Source of the DNA: Candidatus Zixiibacteriota bacterium
GTDB taxonomy: Bacteria; Zixibacteria; MSB-5A5; GN15; FEB-12
Reading direction: 5' to 3'
DNA length: 64,000 nucleotides
Assembly (NCBI GenBank): GCA_024280215.1
Contig: JAJRQO010000027.1
Coordinates: 1-64,000 of the forward strand
Shown: positions 6,131 to 61,951 of the stretch, in pieces
How the letters are laid out: each line of letters starts with the position of its first letter
Position numbering within the stretch: position 1 is the stretch's first letter
Made by a program: the position numbers and the translations under genes
The notes under the pieces: generated by a model
The model's database searches: none
Told to the model about the DNA's origin: nothing
The model's input: the letters and a program-made list of their open reading frames with translations, nothing else

Positions 6131-6217
6131 AGGTTCTGATGGGTGCTTTCACGCATTAGTGTGATACACCTGACACACAGTCAGTTCTCAATTCGCTAAA
6201 GCGAATAAGGAACCGAC
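6131..6217. repeat. paired nested-hairpin repeats, family A (second unit 6180-6217)
   Basis: gtcagttctcaattcgctaaagcgaataaggaaccgac preceded by caggttctgatgggtgctttcacgcattagtgtgatacacctgacac. Confidence 0.65.
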
Positions 6218-6463
6218 TAAACAATTTAAGCCACTTTTTCGCTATAACCAAATCAGGCACAACTTGTTACAAGGAATTGGGTTTGTTTTGTCAAATTTGC
6301 GTTTATTTTTCTATCCTCTTCATATTGCAGAAAATGTTCTTCATTTCATTAAACAAGTTAGATTACTATTTTACGATGTTTTTATATACGAATTGACAAA
6401 AAGCAATAATTGTGTATTTTGATGTCAATAATAGATTTATGTTTTTTAAAATCGGAGGAAAAG

Positions 6464-8914
6464 TTGAAAAAAGTTCTTAAAAGTTTTTTAGTTGTATTGT
6501 TACTTACAAATTCAACATACGCAGTAAATAAAACAGATAATCTATCAAACATTCAAGTCACAAAATCACTTACCTCGATGCCATTTTCATTCACACAAAA
6601 TAATGGGCAATGGGATGAACAGGTAAAATTCCGTGCCAATGCTGGTGGTGCGACGATGTGGTTTGCATCCGATGGTGCCTACTACCAATTCACCCGTACA
6701 ATTAGATCTGAAGATTCCGATCCATTTGAAGACGTCACCCTGAGCTTGTCGAAGGGTCACCGACCAGACTCAATCGAGACGATGATGATAAAAGCCAACT
6801 TCGTGGGAGCAAATCAAAATCCACAAATGGTCGGGGTAGATATGATAGATTACAAATGTAATTACTTCATTGGTAACGACCAATTAAAATGGGCAACTGA
6901 TGTTCCCAACTTTACGGCTGTAATGTATGAACAAATATACGATGGTATCGATTTGAAATATTATGGCAATGGTACCCATATGGAGTATGATTATATCGTC
7001 GAACCAGGTGCTGACTTTTCACAAATCAAAATTCAATACGAAGGTGCCGAATCAATCGCAGTTAATGATAACGGTGAGTTAGTTGTGACAACTATGTGGG
7101 GTGAGGTTGTCGAACAACGACCTATCATTTATCAGATCGAAAACAGCATACGTGTACCAATTGATGGCAGTTATAAATTAAGTGGAGCTAGCTCCTTTTC
7201 ATTTGAACTCGCTGATTACAACACTTCTCTCCCATTAATCATCGACCCTGTCTTGGAGTATAGTACGTATTTGGGAGGAAGTAGAAATGATAGAGGATTA
7301 AGTACTGTAGTAGATAATTTTGGGTCTTCATATATAACTGGATATACTTCTTCTCCAGATTTCCCAATTGTAAACCCTTATAATGAAACATATCAAAATG
7401 GATACAGAGATATCTTTGTTTCAAAGTTGAATCCAACAGGAAATGGTTTAATTTTCAGTACATTTATTGGTGGGAATGGTTACGATAATGCTTATTCAAT
7501 CGATGTAGATCGATTTGGAGCAACTTACATTACTGGAATGACATCTTCATCTGATTTCCCTACTATAAATGCACTTAGTGATTCAGCAAATAGTGTTGTA
7601 GATGCCTTTGTAACTAAATTAAATTCAACAGGAGATAGTTTGGTTTATAGTACCTACTTAGGTGGTAGTAATCAAGATGTAGGAGCGTGCATTATTACTG
7701 ATGATTCTGGAGGAGTTTATATAACTGGAAGGACATCTTCAATTGATTTTCCTCTTCATAAACCGCTTTTTGGAACATTTATGGGTGGTGAAAATGATGC
7801 TTTTGTAACCAAATTAAGTCCAACAGGTTCATACCTAAATTATAGCACATATATAGGAGGGAGTGGTATTGATTATTCTAATGGTATTGCCGTTGATGGT
7901 TCAGGTAATGCATATATAGTTGGATTCACTAATTCTCAAGATTTACCTACTTATAATGCATTTCAAGAATCACAAAGTGGGGCTGGTGATATATTTGTCG
8001 CAAAGTTAAGTAATACAGGAGATAGTCTTGCATATTGTACTTATTTAGGAGGAGAATATTATGATATTGGTTATGACATTTGTGTTGATAGTTCAGGTTC
8101 TGCTTATATAGTAGGGTTTACAGCTTCGGATAATTACCCTGTATATAATCCATATCAAGAAAACTTAGATAATTATGGAGGTAATATTGTAATTACGAAA
8201 ATCAACACAAGCGGAACTAGCTTAGAATATAGTACATATATAGGGGGAAGCAATGCTGATTATGTAAGTGCGATCGAAGTAGATAACTTAGGCTGTGCTT
8301 ATATAACTGGATTGACAACATCTTTTGATTTTCCAGTTGTTAATGCTATTAATAATACAATGAATGGTAGTTCAGCAATATATATTACAAAATTTAATGA
8401 AATCGGTGATAATCTTGAATTTAGCACCTTTTTCGGTGGAACTAGTAGTGACCATTCTCAAGATATTGACATAGATGTAAATGGTAATATATACATAACT
8501 GGTTGGACAACATCTGATGATTTTCCGGTAATTAACCCTTTTGATAGTACATATAAGATTGGTGAGCATGCTTTTATCAGTAAATTTTCTTTTGTTTCTA
8601 CTGACATTGAAAAAGATGACCTTTATAATCTACCGACTAATTTCAACTTGTCACAAAACTATCCGAATCCGTTTAATCCATCAACTACGATTGAATTTAA
8701 TCTGCCAACAAAATCGAATGTAACTATTAATATTTATAATCTGCTTGGACAAGAAATAAATCAACTTGTCAATCAAGTATATTCAGTTGGCAACTACAAA
8801 GTCACATGGGATGGCAGAACTTCTAATGGAAGTCAAGCATCTACTGGTATTTATTTATATCGAATAAAAACGGATAACTTTGTCGAAACTAAAAAAATGT
8901 TACTATTGAAATAA
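6464..8914 (+). CDS. secreted SBBP-repeat beta-propeller protein with C-terminal sorting tail
   Basis: Seven ~64-aa repeats (LxYSTYLGGSxxD...VDxxGxxYITGxTxSxDFP); tail NLSQNYPNPFNPSTTIEFNLP...KKMLLLK; TTG at 6464 follows ATCGGAGGAAAAG and starts a signal peptide, so it is preferred over the track start at 6410. Confidence 0.85.
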   Translation: MKKVLKSFLVVLLLTNSTYAVNKTDNLSNIQVTKSLTSMPFSFTQNNGQWDEQVKFRANAGGATMWFASDGAYYQFTRTIRSEDSDPFEDVTLSLSKGHRPDSIETMMIKANFVGANQNPQMVGVDMIDYKCNYFIGNDQLKWATDVPNFTAVMYEQIYDGIDLKYYGNGTHMEYDYIVEPGADFSQIKIQYEGAESIAVNDNGELVVTTMWGEVVEQRPIIYQIENSIRVPIDGSYKLSGASSFSFELADYNTSLPLIIDPVLEYSTYLGGSRNDRGLSTVVDNFGSSYITGYTSSPDFPIVNPYNETYQNGYRDIFVSKLNPTGNGLIFSTFIGGNGYDNAYSIDVDRFGATYITGMTSSSDFPTINALSDSANSVVDAFVTKLNSTGDSLVYSTYLGGSNQDVGACIITDDSGGVYITGRTSSIDFPLHKPLFGTFMGGENDAFVTKLSPTGSYLNYSTYIGGSGIDYSNGIAVDGSGNAYIVGFTNSQDLPTYNAFQESQSGAGDIFVAKLSNTGDSLAYCTYLGGEYYDIGYDICVDSSGSAYIVGFTASDNYPVYNPYQENLDNYGGNIVITKINTSGTSLEYSTYIGGSNADYVSAIEVDNLGCAYITGLTTSFDFPVVNAINNTMNGSSAIYITKFNEIGDNLEFSTFFGGTSSDHSQDIDIDVNGNIYITGWTTSDDFPVINPFDSTYKIGEHAFISKFSFVSTDIEKDDLYNLPTNFNLSQNYPNPFNPSTTIEFNLPTKSNVTINIYNLLGQEINQLVNQVYSVGNYKVTWDGRTSNGSQASTGIYLYRIKTDNFVETKKMLLLK
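6734..6760 (+). repeat. 27-bp palindromic repeat inside a CDS (family F)
   Basis: gtcaccctgagcttgtcgaagggtcac; arms GTCACCCT/AGGGTCAC pair with one mismatch; same arms as the intergenic element at 61909-61951. Confidence 0.7.
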
Positions 8915-8950: not shown

Positions 8951-9035
8951 GTCAGTTCCTTATTTTGATTTATCAAAATTGGAACTGATGAACAACTGTC
9001 AGTTCATAATTTGCTAAAGCGAATAAGGAACCGAC
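8951..9035. repeat. inverted pair of nested-hairpin repeats, family A
   Basis: gtcagttccttattttgatttatcaaaattggaactgat and, 8 nt later, gtcagttcataatttgctaaagcgaataaggaaccgac in opposite orientation. Confidence 0.75.
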
Positions 9036-9112
9036 CGAACAAGAAATTATCCAGATTGTCGGGTTTCTCACAATTATATTTTTGGGAATCGGAACCACGA
9101 CTAACATAAACA

Positions 9113-9333: not shown

Positions 9334-9436
9334 TACACTGGGATGACATGTGGGGCATACTTCGATAAGCTCATTATGACTTTGTCGGGTTCTGCATTCG
9401 ACAAGTCGAATCCTTGGAACACCGACCTACAAAGCT

Positions 9437-60601: not shown

Positions 60602-61747
60602 TCACCGTCCATTGGTCGAGTACAAATCCAAGAACTCTTTGCGGAACAAATCAAAGCAATTAGATTCAATTGCCTTGCGAATATTTTGCATCAGCTTTTG
60701 ATAAAAATATGTCGAATGATAGGTCGCAAGAATTATCCCCGTGATTTCTTTTTGATTATACAAATGACGAATATACGATCGAGAATACCGCTGGCAAACT
60801 TTACAATCACAATTCGGGTCGAGCGGTTTATCTTCAAGAATGTGCGTGGCGTTACGATAAACTAAAGGACCCTCCGAGGTAAAGACATAGCCCGTTCGAG
60901 CATTGCGAGTCGGAAGCACGCAATCAAACATATCGACACCATGCGAAACCGCCATCAGTAAATCTTCAGGATAGCCAACCCCCATCAGGTAACGAGGTTT
61001 GTCTTCAGGAAGATATTGAATCGTGTGAGCCAGCATCTCTTCCATCTCATCTTTTGGTTCTCCAACCGAAAGCCCACCGATAGCATTGCCAACAAAATCA
61101 AGCGAGACGATCTGCTCGGCTGATTGAGTTCGCAAATCTTTATAGGTAGAACCCTGCACGATGCCGAACAAATTTATACGATTGTCAGAACCACAGGGGT
61201 TCTGACCTACAAGTTCTTCATGTTTGGTGATACACCGTTTTGCCCAAGCGTAGGTTCTGTCGACACCATGTTGAGCGAGTTTCAAGTCGGCAGGATACTG
61301 CACGCATTGGTCAAACGCCATAATAATATCAGCACCAATAGCATGCTCAATTTCCATAACAGATTCAGGAGTGAACATGTGGTAAGAACCGTCGATGTGC
61401 GACTGAAATTTGACGCCCTCGTCTGTAATTTTAGCAATATCACGCAGAGAAAAAACTTGAAAGCCACCAGAATCGGTAAGCGTCGGTTTGTTCCATCCGT
61501 TAAATTTTGCAAGCCCACCCATCTTTTTGATAACTTCAATCCCTGGACGTAAATAAAGATGATAGGTATTTCCTAAAATAATTTCCGCACCACATTCTTC
61601 CAAATCAGAAGAAATTAGTACCTTGACCGCTCCCGAAGTTCCGACAGGCATAAAGGCAGGTGTTTGGATAGTTCCGTGAGCGGTTTTAACTTCACCCCGT
61701 CGTGCGGAACCATCAGATGTTTTATGTGTGTAAATTTTTTCTTTCAT
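60602..61747 (-). CDS. tgt: tRNA-guanine transglycosylase carrying an in-frame 27-bp repeat insertion
   Basis: PVGTSGAVK, LTDSGGFQVFSL, LFGIVQG, GGLSVGEP, zinc site CDCKVCQRYSRSYIRHL. Confidence 0.96.
   Translation of the reverse strand: MKEKIYTHKTSDGSARRGEVKTAHGTIQTPAFMPVGTSGAVKVLISSDLEECGAEIILGNTYHLYLRPGIEVIKKMGGLAKFNGWNKPTLTDSGGFQVFSLRDIAKITDEGVKFQSHIDGSYHMFTPESVMEIEHAIGADIIMAFDQCVQYPADLKLAQHGVDRTYAWAKRCITKHEELVGQNPCGSDNRINLFGIVQGSTYKDLRTQSAEQIVSLDFVGNAIGGLSVGEPKDEMEEMLAHTIQYLPEDKPRYLMGVGYPEDLLMAVSHGVDMFDCVLPTRNARTGYVFTSEGPLVYRNATHILEDKPLDPNCDCKVCQRYSRSYIRHLYNQKEITGIILATYHSTYFYQKLMQNIRKAIESNCFDLFRKEFLDLYSTNGR
61184..61210 (-). repeat. REP-like 27-mer (family G) inside the tgt coding sequence
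   Basis: gtcagaaccacaggggttctgacctac; exact reverse complement of 61786-61812. Confidence 0.95.
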
Positions 61748-61883: not shown

Positions 61884-61908
61884 ATAGTTTATTCTTTCAA
61901 GACCCTTC

Positions 61909-61951
61909 GACTCCGCTCACAGGTTGCAACCTGTTCAGGGTGACTTGAAAA
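61909..61951 (-). repeat. family F palindromic repeat
   Basis: acccttcgactccgctcacaggttgcaacctgttcagggtgac; inner ACAGGTTGCAACCTGT is a perfect palindrome. Confidence 0.75.

Follow-up and report, generated by a model that had tools for sequence, protein, structure and literature searches.

A variable loop of DUF7948-SBBP proteins in Zixibacteria as a probable collecting site for dispersed REP-type repeats

We propose that a permissive, disordered surface loop of the DUF7948 domain collects dispersed REPs that are filtered for an open reading frame, and that a 24-nt repeat read as VTLSLSKG in a gene of a Candidatus Zixiibacteriota bacterium is one such REP. We assign this reading a probability of roughly 75%. 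The repeat is located in a 64,000-nt stretch of DNA (contig JAJRQO010000027.1, positions 1 to 64,000), the whole of which is referred to as the window. The features discussed below are listed here by their position in the window.

6410 to 8914, plus strand: 834-aa ORF composed of DUF7948, seven SBBP repeats (beta-propeller) and a type IX sorting tail (ORF and Pfam)
6590 to 7252, plus strand: DUF7948 domain, a PF25778 match; the genome has only two such matches
6695 to 6772, plus strand: hypervariable loop flanked by YQFT and the IETMMIKA strand, a recurrent landing site of REPs in homologues
6734 to 6757, plus strand: 24-nt REP-type repeat GTCACCCTGAGCTTGTCGAAGGGT, translated VTLSLSKG, an exact copy of a dispersed genome repeat
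6758 to 6760, plus strand: CAC, included in the repeat by the sequence-only reading and not conserved in other copies
9357 to 9380, minus strand: second copy, AT-stem subform with two mismatches to the pattern, intergenic
61184 to 61210, minus strand: GTAG-tagged 27-nt REP, read in frame within tgt as VGQNPCGSD
61902 to 61944, minus strand: third copy, long form with the inner palindrome ACAGGTTGCAACCTGT, intergenic

Positions 6734-6760 (GTCACCCTGAGCTTGTCGAAGGGT followed by CAC) form nine codons, from GTC ACC to GGT CAC, in phase 0 of the ORF at 6410-8914. The sequence-only reading had described them as a single 27-nt palindromic repeat. The phase was as described, but alignment of 30 oriented copies from the same genome gave a unit of 24 nt, GTCA[CT]N CTGAGCTTGTCGAAG N[GA]T, and the 27-nt palindrome was rejected as the repeat unit. 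Within the 24 nt, a 5-bp stem encloses a fixed 11-nt core; a one-sided GTC tag is kept in about 27 of the 30 copies and has no conserved counterpart on the opposite side. At two stem pairs, covariation (97% and 87% paired, as opposed to 50% and 69% in shuffles) exceeded that in all 500 shuffles, which indicates that the hairpin is maintained. Its stem occurs in two main subforms, CCC/GGG and TAC/GTA. The 8-nt outer arms GTCACCCT and AGGGTCAC at 6734-6760 do pair with one mismatch, as had been noticed, but the outer three pairs and the trailing CAC are neither conserved nor covarying across the 30 copies. The segment thus consists of eight codons and three chance nucleotides. Unusual stability of the segment at 6734 as isolated single-stranded DNA was considered and rejected (z = 0.69).

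The 24-mer GTCACCCTGAGCTTGTCGAAGGGT occurs once in the window, with a chance expectation of 0. When two mismatches were allowed, the genome had 37 matches to its 17-nt core versus 1 for a reversed control. The two other copies in the window, which the sequence-only reading had placed at 61909-61951 and 9360-9380, proved to be real but not of the same subform, the former being a long form and the latter an AT-stem subform. The long form is also translated in the DUF7948 paralogue of the same genome, G000:C10. In long-form repeats (61902-61944 of the window, L062, L015 and L022), a second palindrome of the ACAG-TTGCAA-CTGT type is nested in the first hairpin and varies from copy to copy. In a census of sampled loci in metagenome assemblies, scored by simple open-frame rules, 27 of 30 own-genome copies of the window repeat were outside any long frame and 2 were in frames without a coding signal; the single copy in a real gene was that in the loop of the SBBP gene.

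The general characters of REPs are present in this repeat: a unit within 20-40 nt, a one-sided tag, a compensatory hairpin, and many dispersed, mostly intergenic copies. The four described families of CGTC-tagged REPs have an 8- to 9-bp stem, a 4- to 5-nt loop, a CCA tail and no transposase partner (Di Nocera et al. 2013, PMC3733652). Judged by its tag, hairpin and intergenic location, the window repeat appears to be a REP-type element that recalls this class. When it was compared with the CGTC/TGTC tag, GTC was conserved and the preceding base was variable. However, it has a 5-bp stem, an 11-nt core and no conserved tail, and we do not file it as a member of the class because of the shorter stem and longer core. 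It shares with that class the lack of association with a transposase: in 30 RAYT loci, no copy was found close to the RAYT gene, and no mobilizing enzyme for the repeat was identified among these loci. One related variant lies approximately 0.9 kb from a RAYT in G036. The characters of RAYT-associated GTAG/GTRG REPs are absent from the window repeat and are found in the SGRQ repeats of other loops. For the repeat sequence and its peptide, the open literature that was searched contained nothing relevant.

By Pfam, the host protein is organized as a DUF7948-SBBP secreted propeller, in which PF25778 precedes SBBP repeats and a type IX sorting tail, and the best match to its predicted fold is CylK, an SBBP-type propeller enzyme. 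Its named relatives come mostly from metagenome assemblies of Candidatus Zixiibacteriota. The genome contains exactly two DUF7948 genes, and a form of the repeat is present in the loop of both.

The closest homologue, G003:C100 (JAJRXM010000036.1), is syntenic, since an OPT transporter (87% identity) comes after both genes, and on the tree it groups as sister to the window protein (support 100/96). Its loop, in a gene that is interrupted yet has a DUF7948 domain intact over the compared part, reads RTIDRDPISVVDKRYGMSDDMMNQEPDS and contains neither the repeat nor the peptide. The absence of both from a syntenic orthologue argues that VTLSLSKG is derived from the repeat. The loop is 26 aa long in the window protein versus 28 aa in the orthologue, so the mere addition of nine codons does not account for the change. 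A clean empty site, with loop lengths differing by the length of the repeat, was not found in this comparison, which implies that replacement or recombination was involved. Related forms of the repeat are present in the same loop of G000:C10 and of G003:C99; an older arrival in the genus with loss in the orthologue is therefore possible. The interruption of the orthologous gene (L061/L134, 27992-29426) is due to a stop, and most of its SBBP repeats are lost (query 367-721 missing).

The GTAG-tagged REP that encodes VGQNPCGSD is located in a variable loop of queuine tRNA-ribosyltransferase (tgt, 60602-61747). Close orthologues of tgt lack this repeat, and the Tgt loop is 31 aa as opposed to 28 aa, a net gain of 3 aa. 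The lengths in the two proteins, 26 versus 28 aa in DUF7948 and 31 versus 28 aa in Tgt, indicate that native loop sequence was also replaced or lost. The sequence-only reading had inferred that two unrelated families were inserted as exact nine-codon units and that this was a recurring route for adding peptide segments to proteins. A second in-frame repeat is indeed present, in tgt, but the exact nine codons did not hold, given a 24-nt unit and these loop lengths. Nor does the copy census favor a general route of protein lengthening, which was rejected: in the sampled loci, only 1 of 30 copies of the window repeat and 1 of 7 copies of one GTAG type (that in tgt) are in real genes. Recurrence is a feature of a single loop in a single protein family.

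That loop, YQFTRTI-DSIETMMIKA, is the only strongly length-variable part of DUF7948. In an analysis of 25-residue windows, its length ranged from 12 to 64 aa with a standard deviation of 10, as opposed to a standard deviation below 1 for every window outside the loop. REPs were found in the loop of 28 of 108 homologues. They represent about 12 families, are all in open frame and often occur two to four in series. The peptides that they encode include VTLSLSKG, that of its long form, SGRQTPSSAP, VGQDPRGPD, SPLPVGEG, SGAVSAPG, VGRTFLSD, VGQNRFGFD, VGANLFAH, TPQLAVG and GTLHVPAG. One further loop repeat is read in three ways, as VIPAQAGIH, as HSREGGNP in another frame, and as LDSRFRGND on the reverse strand, which shows that no particular peptide is required. 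Neighboring paralogues were seen at G036:C1 (L063) and G032:C7 (L067); the sequences of the G036 pair are nearly the same beyond the loop and different within it, as if gene conversion had spared the loop.

Wherever copies of a family were counted, the family proved to be multicopy in its host genomes. SGRQ copies number 17 in G019, 22 in G025 and 48 in G034, and the GTCATTCCCGC and SGAVSAPG families are likewise multicopy. The 4.8-Mb genome G022 contains about 270 copies of the GTCACCCTGAGCGSAGTCGAAGGG variant (GCGSAGTCG), and its DUF7948 loop carries the same variant. Among 30 sampled SGRQ copies, both of those in frames longer than 300 aa were in the DUF7948 loop (L217 and L223); two more were in frames of 274 and 281 aa.

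Two scans served as fair tests of enrichment in the loop. The first, whose criterion came from published work on REPs rather than from the loops, counted GTRG tags followed by a perfect hairpin (7 bp or longer). It found 20 such hairpins in 8.2 kb of loop, as opposed to 6 in the remaining 211 kb of these genes. Shuffling of codons yielded 0.25 in the loop and 6.7 elsewhere, so the six hairpins outside the loop are at chance level. The second, a de novo palindrome scan, found 10 in 9.5 kb of loop versus 11 in 254 kb elsewhere. A motif-library count of 47 to 3 was set aside as biased, since the library had been derived from the loops. On a tree built without the loop, the presence and absence of REPs required 16 changes, at least 10 of which were forced by well-supported branches. 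Outside the loop, a second in-frame repeat (SSPRPVGEG type) was observed in L189 and L192, about 740 nt from the start of the open frame; it marks a possible second landing site.

In the AlphaFold2 model of the window protein (37 sequences, mean pLDDT of 85), the only stretch with a pLDDT below 50 inside the folded N-domain comprises residues 66-76, between the strands at 49-58 and 81-91. The repeat peptide corresponds to model residues 69-76, within this stretch. With pLDDT taken as a proxy for disorder, the low values between two strands suggest that the repeat most likely encodes a disordered turn.

These data are consistent with the following scenario. A non-autonomous repeat of REP type, dispersed, normally intergenic and marked by a GTC tag and a covarying short stem, would arrive in the beta-hairpin loop of DUF7948 by the usual mobility of REPs, presumably through RAYT-type enzymes for the GTRG families and through another agent for the window repeat. 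On arrival, some of the previous loop sequence would be lost. Selection would then remove arrivals that break the frame or bear stops, and the remaining REPs would be retained mainly by tolerance rather than by advantage. Many unrelated families would have landed in this loop because it is disordered and strongly tolerant of indels. As in the REP/RAYT (TnpA-REP) system, the SGRQTPSSAP loop family is GTRG-tagged, and at G019:C27 and G034:C22 its copies flank RAYT genes in inverted order; the window repeat differs in this respect, not having been found beside RAYT genes.

Tolerance alone may not explain the density of hairpins in the loop, since it exceeds that of nearby intergenic DNA: loops contain 2.4 tagged hairpins per kb, as opposed to 0.43 in intergenic DNA of the homologue loci and 1.3 in that of the window. 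Possible further contributors are selection in favor of change and the insertion of REPs beside others already in place. The same excess would also fit an adaptive role, which we consider unlikely. The capture of REPs would then be favored because a changed surface peptide is useful (against phages or predators, or in binding), and the loop would be a diversity-generating site for which REP populations supply a changing stock of segments. Either capture favored by selection or a preference of the mobilizing enzyme for REPs already present would be part of such a process, and its products would be variable surface peptides on secreted beta-propellers. The paralogues of CAIYYT01 (L174, L181, L185, L188, L189, L192 and L201), which carry different combinations of REPs, agree with such a role, as do the differing loops of the two G036 paralogues (L063). 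Each REP family is also found mostly in one frame although several are open, a concentration that is based on small numbers and that may instead stem from shared descent; for minus-strand hits, whose phases are given in gene coordinates, it is to be judged from the peptides alone. Against an adaptive role, the loops of the majority of REP-free homologues are ordinary, at 20-30 aa.

Recombination could also have passed REP-bearing loops between paralogues or genomes as cassettes, so that a few old insertions spread. A SAPDM flank after SGRQ is common to some loops across genomes (L043, L070, L154 and L223), and VGRTFLSDPGQAGMPILPGDRYEKDS is common to L167, L177 and L179. The shared SAPDM flanks imply that not every loop is an independent insertion and that recombination or descent also contributes. 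As the main source of the loops, however, such exchange is improbable: about 12 families in different serial combinations need many separate arrivals, and loops carry the dominant variant of their own host (GCTTGTCG in G000 and GCGCAGTCG in G022). That VTLSLSKG belongs to the ordinary, conserved sequence of the protein and matches the repeat by coincidence agrees with the intact reading frame but is refuted by the orthologue comparison and has a negligible probability, given the exact 24-nt match to a genome repeat (0 expected) and the unrelated residues at this site in the orthologue and nearly all relatives. The earlier proposal that peptides of the LSLSKG type are repeat products is thereby upheld; conservation of the peptide without the DNA repeat, which would have spoken against it, was not seen in G003:C100.

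A permissive loop that collects REPs extends what is known of repeats within genes. GTAG- and CGTC-tagged REPs are short, tagged and mostly intergenic, some are in frame in genes, and in recB of Xanthomonas different REPs occupy nearly the same position (Di Nocera et al. 2013, PMC3733652). Like the window repeat, these are in-frame tagged palindromes, and the CGTC class likewise lacks a transposase partner; here, by contrast, about 12 repeat families are found in one loop of one protein family in a large part of a phylum. Rickettsia palindromic elements (RPEs), as cited in PMC3733652, are palindromic repeats in frame in protein-coding genes. RPEs are found in many different genes of one genus, whereas the repeats described here are 20-30 nt long and belong to many families in one loop. 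RPE-1 is about 100-150 bp, longer than the elements here. The enterobacterial elements RU-1 to RU-3 are small, mobile and in frame, and have been proposed to form new peptides (Delihas 2007, PMC2759123); at 103-168 bp, MITE-like and in scattered genes, they are unlike the loop REPs. The open papers that were searched contained no link between SBBP proteins and REPs. In-frame REPs and RPEs are thus known as scattered events in unrelated genes, and what is new is their recurrence at one loop across a phylum.

The loop amounts to an experiment performed by nature, which allows the mobility of repeats, the filtering by frame and the tolerance of the loop to be told apart and counted. It is also relevant to the long-standing question of whether new protein sequence comes from selfish palindromic repeats. 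For annotators, VTLSLSKG, VIPAQAGIH, LDSRFRGND and SGRQTPSSAP should be recognized as translated repeats and not as protein motifs.

Two further observations concern the host gene. In the window, it is flanked on both sides by a 48-nt direct repeat (6177-6224 and 8995-9042, 88% identical), which could be a mark of past gene duplication or movement. Contig JAJFJH010000327.1 (L140), labeled Nitrosomonas sp., carries a DUF7948-SBBP gene of the Zixibacteria type that is nested among Zixibacteria genes on the tree; this contig is probably mis-binned.
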